A stretch of 35,908 bases of DNA, from assembly GCA_019038625.1 (NCBI GenBank), contig JAHOYU010000046.1, positions 1 to 35,908 of the forward strand. The letters run 5' to 3'. This stretch comes from Candidatus Latescibacterota bacterium (GTDB lineage Bacteria; Krumholzibacteriota; Krumholzibacteriia; Krumholzibacteriales; Krumholzibacteriaceae). Position numbers and translations under genes: made by a program. Under the pieces are notes generated by a model, which was not told the DNA's origin, did no database searches, and saw only the letters and a list, made by a program, of their open reading frames with translations. Within the stretch, counting starts at the first letter, position 1, and every line of letters starts with the position of its first letter. Shown in pieces: positions 2,038 to 9,198 of the stretch.

Positions 2038-3195
2038 ATGGGGTTGCGCTGGGACAAACTGCTTGAATTCACCAAGGGTGAGGTCAAGGAAGAGAGCAGG
2101 GAAATCGCGCGGCTCAGGAAGAAATACGATTCCGGTGAAGCCAGGGTCGGCGATGTCCTCGAATTGGCGAAGTATCTCCAATCAAGAAAAGAATCTCGAA
2201 AATCCAGCATTATTCTCGGCGAATTGATCAGGCGTAAAGATATCGGTATGGATGTTCTTCTCGATGTGTGCGAGTTGTTCGAGAGATCGGGTAATTACGA
2301 ATCTGCTTTCGAAGGGTATGAAAAGCTGAGAAGTCTACGTTGCGAGGAAGCGTTACCCCTTTACAGGATGGGCAGGCTTCTTGAGAAGCAGGGCAGGCTC
2401 ACTGAGGCTCTCAAACTTCACAGTGAAGCGCTTGATCTTGAGCCGGAGAATCCGGAGTGTCATTACAGGCTTGGAGTAGCTTTTACAAAGAACCGTGATT
2501 ACGATAAAGCGGAGTTGTGTTACAGGAAAGCTATCAACATAGATCCGACACATTCGAAATCGTACACGAACCTTGGATATATTCTGGATCTCAACGGGAA
2601 GCGTAGCGCAGCTCTTCAGCAGTTTCGAAAGGCCGTACAGCACAATCCCAGAAGCGCCGAAGCACATTTTAATCTCGGAGCTCTGTATGGGGACGAGGGT
2701 GATCGTAATCAGGCGATTAAGGAATTCAGAATCGGGATCGAGATCGATCCCGGTTGCATCGAAGGCCACTATAACCTTGGTGTGGCTCTGATAAATGAGG
2801 GTAAGTACGACGAAGCTCTCGAAGAATTCAGCAAGATCCTGAAACTCGAGAGCGACAACGTGAACGCCCTTTTTTACCAGGGGCTCATCTACTACAGAAA
2901 AGGTCTTTACTCCAAGGCCCTGAAAAAACTGCACCAGGCTGCCCATCTGAATCCTGGTAATTCGACTATTCTGTTCTACGTGGGAGAATGCTTTAACAAA
3001 CTGGAGGAACCTCAGAAGGCGCAGGAGTATTTCAAGCGTGTAGCCGAGATCAATCCTGATGATCAGAGAGTATATTTCAGTATGGGTATAGCTTATGAAA
3101 AACAGGACGACAAGCGCAAGGCTCGCGAATGGTACAGGATGGGTGGAGGAGGTATCCAGGGAAGCATCAGGGGGACGAACCGCATAACCGGATGA
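2038..3195 (+). CDS. Tetratricopeptide-repeat (TPR) protein
   Basis: The 385-residue protein has about eight consecutive 34-residue TPR units from roughly residue 107 to 378, each with the usual Gly-Tyr/Ala-Pro pattern such as HYRLGVAFTKNRDYDKA and HFNLGALYGDEGDRNQA. A less regular helical region (residues 1-106) may hold two degenerate repeats. There is no signal peptide or membrane segment, so it is probably a cytoplasmic scaffold for other proteins. The tail is Gly-rich (GGGGIQGSIRG), and its codons run up to the next start, which overlaps the stop as ATGA. GAGGGGGTAAGGA just upstream supports the ATG at 2038. The linked genes encode a surface barrel and isoprenoid-lipid enzymes, which suggests a role in envelope assembly. 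That role is inference; TPRs alone do not define function. Confidence 0.92.
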   Translation: MGLRWDKLLEFTKGEVKEESREIARLRKKYDSGEARVGDVLELAKYLQSRKESRKSSIILGELIRRKDIGMDVLLDVCELFERSGNYESAFEGYEKLRSLRCEEALPLYRMGRLLEKQGRLTEALKLHSEALDLEPENPECHYRLGVAFTKNRDYDKAELCYRKAINIDPTHSKSYTNLGYILDLNGKRSAALQQFRKAVQHNPRSAEAHFNLGALYGDEGDRNQAIKEFRIGIEIDPGCIEGHYNLGVALINEGKYDEALEEFSKILKLESDNVNALFYQGLIYYRKGLYSKALKKLHQAAHLNPGNSTILFYVGECFNKLEEPQKAQEYFKRVAEINPDDQRVYFSMGIAYEKQDDKRKAREWYRMGGGGIQGSIRGTNRITG

Positions 3196-4739
3196 GACAT
3201 TCTACGTTCATATCGTTGTTCTTGTCGTTCTTCCTGATACTGGTCGTTCTTCCCGTCTGTCCGCTTCATGGCTCTAACGAATCGATAGAGCCTTCCTCAT
3301 GGATCTATTCTGCATTCAGATCGTTCGAGCTTGCAGGTCTTGTGGAGCTTCCACCATATATGCCCTGGAGCAGGGCAGATGCGGCATTCCGTCTTGACCG
3401 TCTGTTGCAGAACCTGGATGGGCGCGAGGATATCCTTTCTCCACGCCAGGTCTTTCTTCTGGAGAGGCTTCGTGGAGAACTTCAGGGAACCTCTTCCAGG
3501 CCCCAGGAAAGAGAGGATCGGCCACTTTATATTTTGAGAGAAGGCGGGAGATTTACCGCATTCGATCTGGCGGCCGGACTGTTTTTCAAAAAAAAAGAGG
3601 GTCGCGACAGAGGTGAGCTGGATGGGCTGGCCGAACCTTCCCTTCTGATCGATCCAGGTGGGGGGCTGACCTTTTACACCTCATATCGTCTGCGAATGGA
3701 ACCTGAATGGGGGCTGAATTCTGCGAAGAACAAACCTTCGGCAAGAGAGAAGAGTTTCCGGGGACTCACTGCTGAATACGAGAGAGCGTACCTGTCCTGG
3801 AGCACGGCGAGGATAAGGGTAGTAGCCGGAAGGGATTACATCCATTGGGGAAATGGGAGGGAAGAATCTCTTATCATGTCCAGCAGCGCGGGATCGCTCG
3901 ACCAGGTATCGTTCAGTTTGGAGATGGGAAGGTTCCGGTTGTCGGGAATACAGGTCTCACTCGACAGTGAGTCGGAAAGACATCTGGCCGGCCACAGGCT
4001 TGAGATAACATTTCCTCGATCGATAAGACTGGGTATAAGTGAGACTGTAATTTATTCGGGCCGGCCGTTCGATTATTCCTACATGCTTCCTGCAGGCTTT
4101 TTCTATGCAAATCAGTACAACGAAAAGGGTGACGACAATATTCTCTGGGGCCTGGACTGGAAGATCCCGCTGGGAAAGGGAACTATCGTATACGGAGAAT
4201 TACTGATCGACGATTTTCAGTATGAAGGACGAGGAGAAGCACCTGACAGACTTGGATTTTCGATGACAATAGAGAAGATGTTAGATACCGGCGACCGCGA
4301 GATCGAGTTCCTGGCAGGATATACATATATCGATATATTCACCTATGCCCACAAGGATTCTCTGGGGACAGCCTATGTGACCGGCAGAGGGGCCATTGAC
4401 AATGACCCTCTACTCGGTTCGAGGCTGGGGCCCGATTCAGACAGATGGTCGTTCCAGGTGTCGATACCGGTCACCGCGAGGGTAATGGTCTCTCTGGGAG
4501 CCGATCTGACGAGGCGAGGAGAGGGGAACGATCTTAGAGAATGGGACAGAGAGGAGGATCCTGATCCGGATTTCCCAAGTGGGGAAGTAGTTACGGAGAA
4601 GATGTTTCATTTAGCTGGATATCTGGATCTTGGCCACGGATCCCGGATCGTAGCGGGTGGCGGACTTGTCAGGACGTCACCTGATCGGGTGGGAGGGGAC
4701 GAGGGATTCGGATACCTGGGACTGGTCTTTGATTTCTGA
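3192..4739 (+). CDS. Wzi-like outer-membrane beta-barrel protein (capsule assembly family)
   Basis: I place the start at the ATG at 3192, which overlaps the TPR stop as ATGA and begins a clear signal peptide (MRHSTFISLFLSFFLILVV). An upstream in-frame ATG at 3129 would bury that signal peptide. The mature 490-residue protein opens with WIYSAFRSFELAGLVELPP and PWSRADAAFRLDRLL, the N-terminal layout of the Wzi capsule-assembly family (a large barrel that binds surface polysaccharide). It continues with many beta-hairpins and ends in GLVFDF, with the C-terminal Phe recognised by the BAM machinery. The barrel and outer-membrane location are well supported. The link to Wzi is by pattern, and the ligand is unknown. 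Its stop TGA overlaps the next ATG. Confidence 0.72.
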   Translation: MRHSTFISLFLSFFLILVVLPVCPLHGSNESIEPSSWIYSAFRSFELAGLVELPPYMPWSRADAAFRLDRLLQNLDGREDILSPRQVFLLERLRGELQGTSSRPQEREDRPLYILREGGRFTAFDLAAGLFFKKKEGRDRGELDGLAEPSLLIDPGGGLTFYTSYRLRMEPEWGLNSAKNKPSAREKSFRGLTAEYERAYLSWSTARIRVVAGRDYIHWGNGREESLIMSSSAGSLDQVSFSLEMGRFRLSGIQVSLDSESERHLAGHRLEITFPRSIRLGISETVIYSGRPFDYSYMLPAGFFYANQYNEKGDDNILWGLDWKIPLGKGTIVYGELLIDDFQYEGRGEAPDRLGFSMTIEKMLDTGDREIEFLAGYTYIDIFTYAHKDSLGTAYVTGRGAIDNDPLLGSRLGPDSDRWSFQVSIPVTARVMVSLGADLTRRGEGNDLREWDREEDPDPDFPSGEVVTEKMFHLAGYLDLGHGSRIVAGGGLVRTSPDRVGGDEGFGYLGLVFDF

Positions 4740-5572
4740 TGAGAGTTATCACAGGCATACTGTCAATAATGAGGCTCCATAATGTCGTGGCGGCTGTCTT
4801 TTGTGTCGCGACCGGATACTGGATCGTATCCTGGCCGGAGATTCCCCCGTTAGCTGTCCTGACTGCAGTGGCTCTGGCCACAGCGGCAGGGAATGTGATC
4901 AATGACTACAACGACATCGGTATCGATCGTATCAACAAACCGAAACGTGCGCTTCCGTCGGGCAGGCTGGCTTCCAGGACAGCACTGTCTCTCTACTTCG
5001 TCCTGCTTCTGCTTCTGATCAGTACATTCCCATTTCTTTCCGTCCAGATCTCGATCTGGATATTCGTGTGGATAATACTGTTGTTTCTCTATTCAAGATT
5101 TTTCAAGAGGATGTTCCTGGCCGGAAACCTGCTTGTGTCTGCCGTGACCGGGAGTGGATTCTTGCTGGGAGCGCTGGTCGCGGGTCGTATTGCCCAAGGC
5201 ATGATCCCGGCAGCTTTCACCTTTTTGTTCGTGCTGGGACGGGAACTGGTAAAGGACTGTGAGGATCTGGAGGGAGACAAAAGATTCGGGGCCAGGACCA
5301 TTCCTGTAGTCTGCGGGCAGGTTGTCGCGTTGAACTATGCTGCTGTTATCTTCGTCATCCTGGCGATCTTATTCCCGATTCCATGGGTAAAGGGGGTCTA
5401 CTCGACCGCTTACATGTGGATCATGTCATTTTCTGTCTTGCCGATACTTATCTTTTCAATCATATTTGCGCTGCAGAAAAGAAAAAATGGCCTGGTCAGT
5501 AAATTGTTAAAGCTGGGGATGTTTTTCGGGATCTTCGCTTTTCTGGCCGGCTCGATTCAGCGATCTGGATAA
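4739..5572 (+). CDS. UbiA-family prenyltransferase, DGGGP-synthase-like
   Basis: This 277-residue integral membrane protein of about eight or nine helices has both Asp-rich motifs of the UbiA superfamily: INDYNDIGIDRINKPKRALP (roughly residues 55-75) and LVKDCEDLEGDKRFGARTIP (roughly 175-195). These bind the prenyl diphosphate through Mg2+. The wording of both motifs is closest to archaeal and bacterial (geranylgeranyl)glyceryl-phosphate geranylgeranyltransferase (DGGGP synthase), which adds the second isoprenoid chain to an ether lipid, rather than to UbiA, MenA or protohaem synthase. Related genes occur in Bacteroidetes and other FCB bacteria, where the product is unclear. The ATG overlaps the Wzi-like stop (TGATG), and uppP follows after 12 bases, so it sits among envelope-lipid genes. 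Substrate identity is inferred. Confidence 0.87.
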   Translation: MRVITGILSIMRLHNVVAAVFCVATGYWIVSWPEIPPLAVLTAVALATAAGNVINDYNDIGIDRINKPKRALPSGRLASRTALSLYFVLLLLLISTFPFLSVQISIWIFVWIILLFLYSRFFKRMFLAGNLLVSAVTGSGFLLGALVAGRIAQGMIPAAFTFLFVLGRELVKDCEDLEGDKRFGARTIPVVCGQVVALNYAAVIFVILAILFPIPWVKGVYSTAYMWIMSFSVLPILIFSIIFALQKRKNGLVSKLLKLGMFFGIFAFLAGSIQRSG

Positions 5573-5584
5573 CAGGGGGCCGAA

Positions 5585-6412
5585 TTGTCGAGTGATGTAA
5601 TAATCGTAATTGTTCTTGCCATAATTCAGGGATTGACCGAATTTCTTCCCGTGAGTTCTTCAGGCCACCTTGTGATAGCGGGAGCCCTTCTCGGATCGAG
5701 AGATCCTGCCGGGGCCGGCAGTATAATGTTTGAGATCGCTGTTCATGTCGGTACTCTGGGGGCTGTCGTAACGGTTTACAGGAAGAAGATCGTCGCGTTG
5801 GTGCGCACAGCGGCAGGGTGGATATTTCCTGCCCTCAGAATAAACGAGACATTCAAGGATGATTCCCTCTACATCGGGTGGATATTCCTCGGGTCGATAC
5901 CGGCCGGATTAGTAGGCATCCTTTTCAAAGACCGGATAGAGGGGATGTTCGATTCCCCCGGGATAGTATCAGGCCTGCTGATAGTGACCGGTGTGATGCT
6001 TCTGCTCTCGAAAGGTCGTGGCGGTGATTCCTCTCTCACATGGAAAACGGTGATTCTGATCGGTATTGCGCAGGCTGTAGCGATATTTCCCGGCTGTTCC
6101 AGGAGCGGATGGACCATCGCTGTCGCGCTTTTGATGGGGATCGGGTTCGAGAGAGGTGCAGAATTCTCGTTCATGTTGAGTCTCCCTGCCATTCTGGGAG
6201 CTCTTCTTCTGGAACTGGTGGATGGCGGTGTTATTTTCTCCACTTCATCAATGATCCTGCTGGTTATCGGGACCGTCACCGCATTCGTTGCCGGCCTTTT
6301 CGCGCTGAAGTTGTTGATATATATACTCAAAAAAGGTTCGTTTTACAGGTTTGCATGGTATCTTATCCCTGCGGGATTGGGGCTTCTTGCATATTTCATG
6401 ATAATCGTGTAA
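5585..6412 (+). CDS. uppP: Undecaprenyl-diphosphatase (BacA/UppP family)
   Basis: UppP removes a phosphate from undecaprenyl diphosphate to recycle the lipid carrier for peptidoglycan and surface glycans, and its loss causes bacitracin sensitivity. The 275-residue protein has the usual length and the two signature motifs: IQGLTEFLPVSSSGHL with catalytic Glu19, and FPGCSRSGW with Arg173. Seven or eight hydrophobic helices fill the rest. No ATG fits the conserved N-terminus. The TTG at 5585, eight or so bases after GGGGGC, is the only reasonable start and leaves MSSDVIIVIVLAIIQG. It follows the UbiA gene by 12 bases and is probably co-transcribed with it. Confidence 0.96.
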   Translation: MSSDVIIVIVLAIIQGLTEFLPVSSSGHLVIAGALLGSRDPAGAGSIMFEIAVHVGTLGAVVTVYRKKIVALVRTAAGWIFPALRINETFKDDSLYIGWIFLGSIPAGLVGILFKDRIEGMFDSPGIVSGLLIVTGVMLLLSKGRGGDSSLTWKTVILIGIAQAVAIFPGCSRSGWTIAVALLMGIGFERGAEFSFMLSLPAILGALLLELVDGGVIFSTSSMILLVIGTVTAFVAGLFALKLLIYILKKGSFYRFAWYLIPAGLGLLAYFMIIV

Positions 6413-6498: not shown

Positions 6499-9198
6499 AT
6501 GCTCGGCAAGGTATATAAACCGAATGAAATAGAAAATAAATGGAGCAGGGCCTGGGATGAGAGCGGTGTTTTTACGGCGGATGTAGAATCAACATTACCA
6601 CCGTACACGATAATCCTTCCACCGCCGAATGTGACAGGAAAACTCACCGTGGGTCACGCGCTCGGGACGACTGTGCAGGATATCCTCATCCGCTGGAAAC
6701 GGCTTACAGGTCACAATGTGTTATGGCTTTCGGGGACCGATCATGCCGGGATCGCGACACAGAACGTCGTAGATCGTTCACTCGAGAAGGCCGGTACCTC
6801 CAGAGAAGAGATGGGCAGGGATGCGTTTCTGGAGGAATGCTGGAAATGGAAGAAACAGTATCACGGGAGGATAGTCGAACAGTTGGGTCGGCTGGGTGCG
6901 TCACTTGACTGGAGCCGGGAGGCTTTTACTCTCGATCCGGGAGTATCAAGTGCTGTGAGGGAGATATTCGTACGCCTCTTTGAAAAAGGATTGATTTACA
7001 GGGGGAAATATATTGTCAACTGGTGTCCTTCCTGTGGAACGGCGATAAGCGACGAGGAAGTAGATTTCAGGGAAGAGGATTCCAAACTTTACTACATAGC
7101 CTATCCGTACGTTGATGGTAAGGGTGAAGTGATAGTAGGAACGACCCGTCCGGAAACGATGCTCGGAGATGTTGCCGTCGCCATGAGTCCTGATGACCCG
7201 AGGGCTGGGAAGATGAAGGGGATGTTTCTGAAGCTTCCTCTGACTGACAGAGAGATACCAGTGATCTTCGATGAAGCGGTCGATCCTGAATTCGGGACCG
7301 GATGTCTGAAAGTGACGCCCGCGCACGACGCGACCGATTTCGCTATAGGCCTCAGGCACGGCTTTGATCCTGTGGTCGTCATCGACCGTACTGGCAGAAT
7401 GAACGAGGAAGCTGGAAAATTCAAGGGCCTGGGAATATTCGAGGCTAGAAAGGCCGTGCTGGCCGCCCTGGAAGAACAAGGATACATGCGGAAGATAGAT
7501 GACTATAGACATTCGGTCGGACACCACGATCGGTGCGGCCAGATTATCGAGTCCTCGATCTCCAGGCAGTGGTTCCTGAAAATGGATTCGCTGGCTGCTC
7601 CTGCTGTAAAATCCGTCGAAGATGGGGATGTCACGTTTTTCCCCGAACGATGGAAGAACATCTATCTCAGCTGGATGGAGAATATCAGGGACTGGTGCAT
7701 ATCGAGGCAGCTCTGGTGGGGTCATCGGATACCGGTGTGGTATTGTGATGATTGTGGCGAGATGACAGTTACGAGAGAAGACCCGGATCGATGCGCTAAA
7801 TGTGGCGGTGGGAAAATAACCCAGGACGAGGATGTGCTGGATACCTGGTTCTCCTCATGGCTCTGGACCTTTTCTCCCCTGGGCTGGCCAGATGAGACAG
7901 CCGACCTGAAGACTTTTCACCCTACAGATGTACTGGTTACCGGAGGAGATATCATCTTTTTCTGGGTGGCGAGGATGATCATGGCCTCTATAGAGTTTCT
8001 GGGAGAAAAACCGTTTTCCGACGTATATATAACGGGAATCGTCCGCGATACAAAGGGACGGAAGATGAGTAAATCCCTGGGGAATTCGCCAGACCCGATA
8101 GATATCATCGAACGCAGGGGCGCGGACGCTTTCCGTTTTACCCTGATGATGCTTTCTCCTCCCGGACAGGATCTGATGTTCGACGAGAGCAAGGTCGAGA
8201 TAGGTGGACATTTCGCTAACAAGATCTGGAACGCGGCGAGATTTGTCCTGAGTCAGGGTGAGGGTGGTGACGGGATGTTCGATGGTGAAGATGCCCCGGA
8301 TGGCAGCGATCCCGTACTGGATCTCTTTTCTCGCCTGTACGGAAAAAATCCTTCATATGAGACTGCATTTGGTTGGGAGGATAGATGGATCATCAGCCGG
8401 TTGAAGGCGAGGTTCGGGGAATACGGAAGGTCGATAGACGGATTCAGGTTCGATGAGGCGGTCAAGACTGTCTATGATTTCTTCTGGCATGAGTTCTGTG
8501 ACTGGTATCTGGAACTCTCCAAGCCAGCGTTCCGGGATGAGGGTCCCCGGCGGGCCGGAGCCGCAGTGACTGCAAGGGCTGTACTGGGGCTTTCAATGGT
8601 GATGCTGCATCCGGTGATGCCGTTTATTTCGGAAGAGATTTGGTCGATGCTTTCACCTGACGCTCCTCTTCTGGCGGGTTACAGGCTGAAAGATCTTCCA
8701 GACGATCTAATGGATAAAGATCTTGAGGCAGGCGTGGAGATGTTCAGAGAGATCGTTTCGAGTATCCGTAATCTCCGTCAGACTTTTAACATTGCTCCAG
8801 GGACTGAGGTCGGGATCATAATCTCCGCTGAACCTGGCAGGAATATTCCCGCGAGGCTCGAGCCATTTCGTGGACAGATCCAGGCTCTGGCAAAGGTGAG
8901 TGACCTCTCAATATCGGATGATGCTGAAAAACCGAAAGGATGCGCGGCATCGGGACATACACATATAAACATTTATCTTCCTCTGGAAGGTGTGATAGAT
9001 ATCCAGGAGGAAAGAGACCGGTTGAGCAAGGACCTCGAGAAGCTTGTAAGGGAATCGGATAAGATAGGTGTCAGGCTCAAGGACGAGAAGTTCACAGGGA
9101 GGGCGCCTGCTGATGTTGTTGAGAGGGAACGTGACAGATACGGAGAGATGATGGACAAGCGCAGACGTATTGCGAGTATTCTGGAGGATCTCGAGTGA
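6499..9198 (+). CDS. valS: Valyl-tRNA synthetase
   Basis: ValRS charges tRNA-Val. The 899-residue class I enzyme is full length. The nucleotide-binding HIGH motif region is PPPNVTGKLTVGHAL (residues 41-55), where the first His of HxGH is Thr50. The second motif is KMSKS at residues 522-526. The editing domain follows the N-terminal catalytic half and keeps motifs such as GTTRPETMLGD and TPAHDATDF. A zinc-type CDDCGE...CAKCGG pair lies near residues 416-437. The C-terminal anticodon domain starts around residue 630 and is followed by the ValRS coiled coil (about 835-899). AAGGAGATGTA supports the ATG. The stop overlaps the GTG start of the RodZ-like gene. The Thr-for-His change is also known in some other bacterial ValRS sequences, as far as I recall. 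Confidence 0.98.
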   Translation: MLGKVYKPNEIENKWSRAWDESGVFTADVESTLPPYTIILPPPNVTGKLTVGHALGTTVQDILIRWKRLTGHNVLWLSGTDHAGIATQNVVDRSLEKAGTSREEMGRDAFLEECWKWKKQYHGRIVEQLGRLGASLDWSREAFTLDPGVSSAVREIFVRLFEKGLIYRGKYIVNWCPSCGTAISDEEVDFREEDSKLYYIAYPYVDGKGEVIVGTTRPETMLGDVAVAMSPDDPRAGKMKGMFLKLPLTDREIPVIFDEAVDPEFGTGCLKVTPAHDATDFAIGLRHGFDPVVVIDRTGRMNEEAGKFKGLGIFEARKAVLAALEEQGYMRKIDDYRHSVGHHDRCGQIIESSISRQWFLKMDSLAAPAVKSVEDGDVTFFPERWKNIYLSWMENIRDWCISRQLWWGHRIPVWYCDDCGEMTVTREDPDRCAKCGGGKITQDEDVLDTWFSSWLWTFSPLGWPDETADLKTFHPTDVLVTGGDIIFFWVARMIMASIEFLGEKPFSDVYITGIVRDTKGRKMSKSLGNSPDPIDIIERRGADAFRFTLMMLSPPGQDLMFDESKVEIGGHFANKIWNAARFVLSQGEGGDGMFDGEDAPDGSDPVLDLFSRLYGKNPSYETAFGWEDRWIISRLKARFGEYGRSIDGFRFDEAVKTVYDFFWHEFCDWYLELSKPAFRDEGPRRAGAAVTARAVLGLSMVMLHPVMPFISEEIWSMLSPDAPLLAGYRLKDLPDDLMDKDLEAGVEMFREIVSSIRNLRQTFNIAPGTEVGIIISAEPGRNIPARLEPFRGQIQALAKVSDLSISDDAEKPKGCAASGHTHINIYLPLEGVIDIQEERDRLSKDLEKLVRESDKIGVRLKDEKFTGRAPADVVERERDRYGEMMDKRRRIASILEDLE

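Follow-up and report, generated by a model that had tools for sequence, protein, structure and literature searches.

A ubiA-type gene on the 35,908-nucleotide contig JAHOYU010000046.1 (the window, an entire contig of a 3.78-Mb genome that is 96% complete) encodes what is, on balance, probably a prenyltransferase of the digeranylgeranylglyceryl phosphate (DGGGP) synthase type that has been retargeted to another membrane acceptor in Candidatus Krumholzibacteriota. The gene is an intact open reading frame at 4739-5572 (plus strand) with an ATG start, and its 277-residue product was assigned to the UbiA superfamily from the reading frame, family models, a Protein Data Bank (PDB) match and a fold model. 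A sequence-only reading of the window had proposed archaeal-type ether-lipid synthesis. We reject this as the leading interpretation because geranylgeranylglyceryl phosphate (GGGP) synthase is missing from the genome of the window and from the genomes of the phylum that carry the gene. The simplest account is that the enzyme lost, or never had, a supply of GGGP and works on some other membrane acceptor.

The window protein matched the Pfam UbiA model at 3.2e-38 (131.9 bits versus a cut-off of 34.2). Twenty-three NCBIfam families were listed for the protein, a MenA model not being among them, and the top model was PRK12882 ("GGGP geranylgeranyltransferase", 4.8e-58, 196.6 bits), followed by PRK12884 (prenyltransferase, 173 bits) and PRK12883 (GGGP geranylgeranyltransferase, 139 bits, cut-off 353). 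Two PRK12872 models gave 127 and 94 bits (PRK12872.1-1 scored 93.7, cut-off 278). Lower scores were obtained with ChlG (66.2), EboC (57.7, cut-off 250), UbiA-like (47.9) and heme O synthase (26.1) models, and the models of decaprenyl-phosphate phosphoribosyltransferase (DPPR synthase) gave only about 27 bits. The UbiA, CtaB/CyoE, ChlG, EboC and DPPR synthase models all scored 67 bits or less, with cut-offs that all exceed 180, and no model reached its curated NCBIfam cut-off on the window protein.

The best PDB sequence match, and the sole strong one, was the DGGGP synthase of Methanocaldococcus jannaschii (MjDGGGPS; 6m31, 2.7e-34). A profile of 18 phylum members matched the 6m31 chain at 6.9e-55, the next match being chlorophyll a synthase (7.1e-24). 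The AlphaFold2 model of the window protein had a mean pLDDT of 90.2, and VIA-align 2 placed 6m31 as the top PDB fold (Z 28.5 over 273 residues, rmsd 4.6, 32% identity), with 4od4 as the next family (Z 23.4). Foldseek concurred (E 6.3e-13 for the best match versus 2.4e-06).

Residue roles in MjDGGGPS follow passages in the review PMC9385802, and equivalences were assigned by alignment with that enzyme. All eight catalytic residues checked were kept in the window protein: N55, D59 and D63 of motif 1 (4901-4927, plus strand as for the other codons given here; Mj N62, D66 and D70), Y118 and K123 of the Y-x4-K motif 2 (5090-5107; Mj Y125 and K130) and D173, D176 and D180 of motif 3 (5255-5278; Mj D180, D183 and D187). 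Mj F148 was also matched, by F141. The first aspartate of motif 3 was missing from six of the 32 window-type rows of the phylum alignment and from all three divergent rows. The two aspartate motifs and the reading frame quoted in the sequence-only reading are present letter for letter, and the resemblance to archaeal DGGGP synthase that it noted is borne out: judged by the ranking of family models, the predicted structure and the catalytic residues, the window protein is closest to that enzyme. Its chemistry is probably like that of DGGGP synthase, but the window enzyme should not be filed as one, since its PRK12882 score fell short of the curated cut-off (196.6 versus 296) and no enzyme supplying GGGP was found. 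The gene is under purifying selection (dN/dS of 0.17 relative to a same-genus orthologue).

The catalytic apparatus is accompanied by no recognizable source of the canonical substrate. The GGGP synthase model PF01884 gave no match in the genome of the window; the sequence-only reading had recorded this absence for the window, and it holds for the whole genome. Glycerol-1-phosphate dehydrogenase (G1PDH, PF13685) likewise gave no matches in this genome. The CDP-archaeol synthase (CarS) model PF01864 gave only one sub-cut-off match (17.9 versus 22), which we discarded, as it falls within a CdsA-like (phosphatidate cytidylyltransferase) stretch (L005). The search for partner enzymes by which the sequence-only reading proposed to check an ether-lipid role hence came out against that role. 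We treat GGGP synthase as the one diagnostic absence because Candidatus Cloacimonetes also lack CarS and G1PDH.

Across 80 genomes of the phylum, 39 had a match to the window protein at 1e-10, and 32 of these matched at 1e-40 or better and are called window-type (18/20 genomes of family f1, 5/5 of f2, 2/2 of f3, 1/1 of f7 and 6/6 of f8). The seven weaker-matching genomes were four of family f5 and three of f6; the other f6 genomes had no match at 1e-10. None of the 80 genomes gave a full-length match to PF01884, and the 32 genomes with window-type UbiA gave no match of any kind, which counts against the ether-lipid role. Short matches were found at six places in five of the 80 genomes, one of them a genome with a divergent f6 homologue (G062), and covered profile positions 160-217 only, at 1e-3 to 1e-5. 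We dismissed these as GGGP synthases because they are C-terminal pieces, because none lies in a window-type genome and because even a real GGGP synthase matches HisF-type barrels with its C-terminal portion. An assembly gap was likewise rejected, since all 32 genomes would have to miss the gene.

The PF01884 search has the needed power because it found full-length GGGP synthases in Bacteroidota and Cloacimonadota, mostly at 1e-35 to 1e-49 (one partial match, 5.6e-26); it also finds the haloarchaeal form (Haloferax control). Three of six named genomes had the full-length enzyme (one Cloacimonadota and two of three Bacteroidota), and the two Krumholzibacteriota among the six were without it. Among 98 Cloacimonadota genomes, a UbiA homologue was found in 54 and GGGP synthase in 52; counted by hand from the search tables, 51 had both, three had UbiA only (G105, G129 and G156), one had GGGP synthase only (G163) and 43 had neither. 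The comparison of 51/3 in Cloacimonadota with 0/32 in Krumholzibacteriota gave a Fisher p of 1.6e-20, although the genomes are related and do not represent independent events. In 30 Cloacimonadota loci fetched from the 54 genomes, GGGP synthase lay within the 1.5-kb flank of the ubiA homologue in 28 (one partial at a contig end) and a prenyl synthase in 29.

The absence of GGGP synthase is paralleled by a single substitution. A signature scan set 21 Krumholzibacteriota rows against 17 Cloacimonadota and six archaeal rows (columns conserved at 90% in each set) and found 30 columns identical in both sets and one that differs, tryptophan 111 of the window protein (codon 5069-5071), which corresponds to Mj N118. 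Two control splits of the three groups gave no differing column at 90%/90%. Trp111 is present in 35/35 Krumholzibacteriota rows (32/32 window-type and 3/3 divergent f6 rows). The equivalent residue is asparagine in 6/6 archaeal rows and in 35/35 Cloacimonadota rows from genomes that have GGGP synthase (35 of the 51 such genomes were sampled), and leucine in each of the four rows from the three Cloacimonadota genomes that lack it. The f5 homologues L077 and L079 group with MenA and ChlG and were excluded from the signature count, and the f5 genomes G008 and G010 lie outside the alignment. His14 is also invariant in the phylum (34/34 rows that reach the position), and no archaeal, Cloacimonadota or Bacteroidota row has it; the divergent f6 homologues share both His14 and Trp111 with the window type. 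Residues 111 and 118 should lie on one helix face because they are spaced seven apart on the same predicted helix (102-120), and Trp111 may face the cavity. According to the passages of PMC9385802 that treat it, Mj Y125, the equivalent of residue 118, lies near the GGGP glycerol backbone.

The Cloacimonadota without GGGP synthase (L152, L153 and L154) carry a separate UbiA type with leucine at the Asn118 position and glutamate at position 14; one of these genomes (G156) holds two UbiA copies about 1.4 kb apart (L154:1897-2448 and 3895-4740). The neighbors of these homologues (CorA, an epimerase and pentapeptide repeats) gave no functional clue. In Bacteroidota, the UbiA homologue at a Saprospiraceae locus (L013:5232-7292) lies between genes that we take to be HAD-phosphatase-like and Maf-like, and a gene of similar length lies 3' of the UbiA homologue at two other loci (L014 and L015).

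Phylogenetic analysis set the Krumholzibacteriota proteins apart. In a tree of 61 rows, a branch with support of 98/95 split off 21 Krumholzibacteriota rows together with two divergent f6 rows, and another group (84/83) held MenA, ChlG, UbiA, CyoE, DPPR synthase, ApUbiA, AfUbiA, an unassigned paralogue and the f5 rows. In a reduced tree from which eleven mostly long-branched rows were dropped, MenA and ChlG were separated at 96/96 and the Krumholzibacteriota formed one clade at 99/97; E. coli UbiA had a branch length of 6.48 in this tree and its position there is meaningless. Six archaeal sequences were sampled, and haloarchaeal plasmids were the source of five. Of the tree proposed in the sequence-only reading, separation from MenA and ChlG was obtained, but grouping with other UbiA families is permitted by the approximately unbiased (AU) test.

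Several observations weigh against retargeting of a DGGGP-synthase-type enzyme. The AU test rejected none of four placements of the window clade: p was 0.22 for a grouping with Cloacimonadota, 0.285 for archaea, 0.363 for both together and 0.319 for the other UbiA families. Nor did the trees resolve the deep branching among the archaeal, Cloacimonadota, Bacteroidota and Krumholzibacteriota groups. The Bacteroidota break the residue pattern, having alanine in a genome without GGGP synthase and cysteine and valine in two genomes with it; GGGP use thus does not always go with asparagine. Of the three residues that reportedly form the wall of the geranylgeranyl diphosphate tunnel in MjDGGGPS, two are changed in the window protein (S171 to Phe and I29 to Thr), which makes the prenyl donor itself uncertain. 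The geranylgeranyl (GG) reductase homologue described below might serve menaquinone instead. Lastly, the undecaprenyl-diphosphate phosphatase gene uppP that follows the window gene adjoins ubiA in 0/9 loci of families f3, f7 and f8.

Given these observations, we propose the following working mechanism for a retargeted enzyme. The prenyltransferase would be an integral membrane protein that requires Mg2+ and uses the same catalytic machinery as DGGGP synthase. The donor would be a trans-prenyl diphosphate, presumably C15-C20 or longer, supplied by one of the two trans-prenyl synthases found in the genome. This diphosphate would enter the UbiA cavity, where the aspartates of motifs 1 and 3 may hold Mg2+ and the diphosphate as their counterparts do in MjDGGGPS. 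The allylic carbon would then pass to a nucleophile, most likely a hydroxyl group, on a membrane acceptor; this would not be GGGP because no known enzyme making GGGP was found in these genomes. Trp111, which is invariant and lies two turns of the helix away from the tyrosine that contacts glycerol, probably reshapes the pocket. As the acceptor we would first suggest, as a doubtful hypothesis, a lyso-phospholipid such as 1-acyl-glycerol-3-phosphate, prenylated at its free sn-2 hydroxyl. This would yield a hybrid lipid with one acyl and one isoprenyl chain, and the GG-reductase homologue could saturate the latter.

An isoprenyl-lipid role is a reasonable guess because of that homologue (C72:8479-9381), which scored 181.9 bits versus a family cut-off of 158.8; among equivalog models it came closest to the archaeal DGGGP-lipid reductases (209.7 bits against a cut-off of 780), MenJ giving only 45. 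The gene occupies G000:C72:8158-9399 (L151) on the minus strand and encodes 413 residues, with an acyl-CoA ligase two genes away. The full proposal is that Krumholzibacteriota prenylate lyso-phosphatidate or a similar bacterial lyso-lipid instead of GGGP, so that one glycerol carbon bears an acyl chain and another an isoprenyl ether; Trp111 would be the switch, and the GG-reductase homologue would saturate the chain. We regard this as rather improbable. If it were true, the archaeal enzyme of the second ether bond would act on the ester backbone of bacteria, both features would be joined in one molecule, and the membrane lipid would be of a class hitherto undescribed.

The window gene lies in a conserved block (38 loci) in the order TPR, Wzi-like, ubiA, uppP, valS, rodZ, uvrB and nadC, which is kept across the phylum (the last three labels are HTH_25/RodZ, UvrB and QRPTase family matches). 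The block genes with coordinates here are on the plus strand. The TPR-repeat gene (2038-3195; Pfam and synteny) is a conserved upstream neighbor, and the gene for a Wzi-like outer-membrane protein (3129-4739; PF14052, 5.1e-11, above cut-off) overlaps the ubiA start by one base, the start codon and the upstream stop codon forming TGATG at 4737-4741 as in an operon. The gene for UppP/BacA undecaprenyl-diphosphate phosphatase (5585-6412), identified by family models, begins 12 bases downstream of ubiA. The flank of the block is a gene that we take to be valS, for valyl-tRNA synthetase (6499-9198), a label given from its translation and synteny. All 31 other window-type loci had at least one block neighbor beside ubiA, and 27 of them had the Wzi-like gene upstream; of the four that lacked it, L043 starts 276 bases upstream of ubiA and L047 is a short fragment at the end of a contig. 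UppP lies 3' of ubiA in 22/22 loci of f1 and f2, and the three divergent f6 homologues (26 to 33% identity; L078, L082 and L083 of genomes G062, G061 and G060) all show the order TPR-ubiA-uppP. Since the same block is found across families, the divergent f6 loci included, the ubiA gene is ancestral to the sampled families and was inherited in place. We rejected recent transfer from archaea because of the shared block and the clade support in both trees. Upstream in the window are an Arf/Obg-like small GTPase gene (9-1022), which is kept upstream of the TPR gene over much of the phylum, and a stand-alone response regulator (1130-1495).

Could the window protein be a true DGGGP synthase after all, with GGGP supplied by an unrelated or very divergent GGGP synthase or scavenged from co-habiting archaea? 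Retention of every catalytic residue, the MjDGGGPS-like structure and the GG-reductase homologue and two prenyl synthases fit such ether-lipid synthesis, as does the report, in the sections of PMC7852524 that deal with them, that Cloacimonetes without CarS and G1PDH have working GGGP and DGGGP synthases. However, PF01884 is absent from every gene-bearing genome in a search that detects even the haloarchaeal form, scavenging does not explain a locus fixed over the phylum, every member has tryptophan for asparagine at position 111, and the NCBIfam cut-offs for DGGGP synthase were not reached. We therefore consider this explanation unlikely. By analogy with DPPR synthase, the enzyme might instead make a polyprenyl-linked envelope intermediate, such as a prenylated sugar or polyol, and act alongside UppP and the Wzi-like protein in supplying the assembly of surface polysaccharide. 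The overlap with the Wzi-like gene, the closeness of uppP and its persistence in the f1, f2 and f6 loci favor this possibility, and no second uppP was found in the genome. That single copy also marks UppP as a housekeeping gene, as are RodZ, UvrB and NadC in the rest of the block, so its company may reflect housekeeping and not functional coupling. The nine f3, f7 and f8 loci without an adjoining uppP, a separate DPPR synthase above cut-off in the genome and the poor fit of the window protein to DPPR models also speak against an envelope role, and we judge it improbable.

An ordinary aromatic or quinone prenyltransferase of the MenA, UbiA, ChlG, EboC or heme O synthase type is very unlikely. 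The AU test allows grouping with these families, and EboC-type Ubi-297 has a putative DGGGP synthase among its closest characterized relatives (PMC9235831), but the ChlG, EboC, UbiA-like and heme O synthase models score far below PRK12882, the 96/96 branch separates MenA and ChlG, and a family scan of the window and synteny showed no aromatic-pathway neighbor at the locus; no ebo gene was noticed among the scanned neighbors. The genome has four UbiA paralogues, the window gene, a MenA-like gene (C251), a DPPR synthase (C113) and one that fits no named family (C110), and the menaquinone and DPPR tasks are thus covered by paralogues of their own. The DPPR synthase (L086:9257-10147, minus strand) scored 250.9 versus an NCBIfam cut-off of 234 and adjoins a gene that we take to be undecaprenyl-phosphate sugar transferase-like. 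The C110 paralogue (L085:9386-10348, minus strand) has 320 residues, fits PRK12875 best (85 bits versus a cut-off of 205) and presumably has glycosyltransferase-like and polysaccharide-deacetylase-like genes as neighbors.

The sequence-only reading had pointed to reports of archaeal-type ether-lipid genes in some FCB (Fibrobacterota-Chlorobiota-Bacteroidota) bacteria, and the host fits that setting: the nearest named relative is a Candidatus Krumholzibacteriia metagenome-assembled genome (85% identity across the whole protein), the next three matches are also from Krumholzibacteriota, and we take that phylum to belong to the FCB neighborhood. Bacterial DGGGP synthase homologues are cited as evidence for mixed archaeal/bacterial membranes in FCB bacteria. 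Here, a phylum near that group has the second-step enzyme with its catalytic residues intact and under selection, and the first-step enzyme is absent. Annotation by homology only would wrongly predict ether lipids for Krumholzibacteriota. The Asn118/Trp111 position provides a testable residue whose identity follows the occurrence of GGGP synthase across Cloacimonadota, archaea and Krumholzibacteriota. The gene opens the question of roles of DGGGP-synthase-like enzymes beyond archaeal lipid synthesis, which matters for what is claimed of how the lipid divide arose.

Among the papers listed in a literature search by titles and abstract openings, none dealt with the window gene or the lipids of the phylum, passages of PMC9727166 and PMC11868695 had nothing on the gene, and a search for lysophosphatidate as an acceptor listed only unrelated papers. 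Krumholzibacteriota does not occur in the main text of PMC7852524. In the parts of that paper concerned, GGGP and DGGGP synthase genes are described together in FCB and related phyla, the two Cloacimonetes enzymes together give unsaturated PG-archaeol in E. coli, and Candidatus Cloacimonetes lack CarS and G1PDH but have reductases (section 23). According to passages of PMC6431249, all 12 surveyed FCB phyla hold both orthologues. A phylum with the second enzyme and without the first therefore departs from what these portions of the two surveys describe.

The window protein shares its fold and all the catalytic residues of motifs 1 to 3 with M. jannaschii DGGGP synthase (6m31 and 7bpu), but has tryptophan for Asn118, phenylalanine for Ser171 and threonine for Ile29, and its genome lacks the GGGP-making partner. 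Family scores put it in the same UbiA branch as the Candidatus Cloacimonetes DGGGP synthase (27 to 41% identity), with which it also shares a bacterial host of the FCB type (presumed for the window) and a genome with GG-reductase and prenyl synthases. However, the Cloacimonadota copies sit with a prenyl synthase and GGGP synthase and carry asparagine, whereas the window copy sits between Wzi-like and UppP genes and carries tryptophan. EboC-type Ubi-297 enzymes, which farnesylate quinolines (PMC9235831), resemble the window protein in being UbiA-type proteins with Asp-rich motifs outside the main quinone families, but it falls far below the EboC cut-off. Its own paralogues (C251, C113 and C110) belong to the same superfamily, fall in other NCBIfam families and are distant in the tree.

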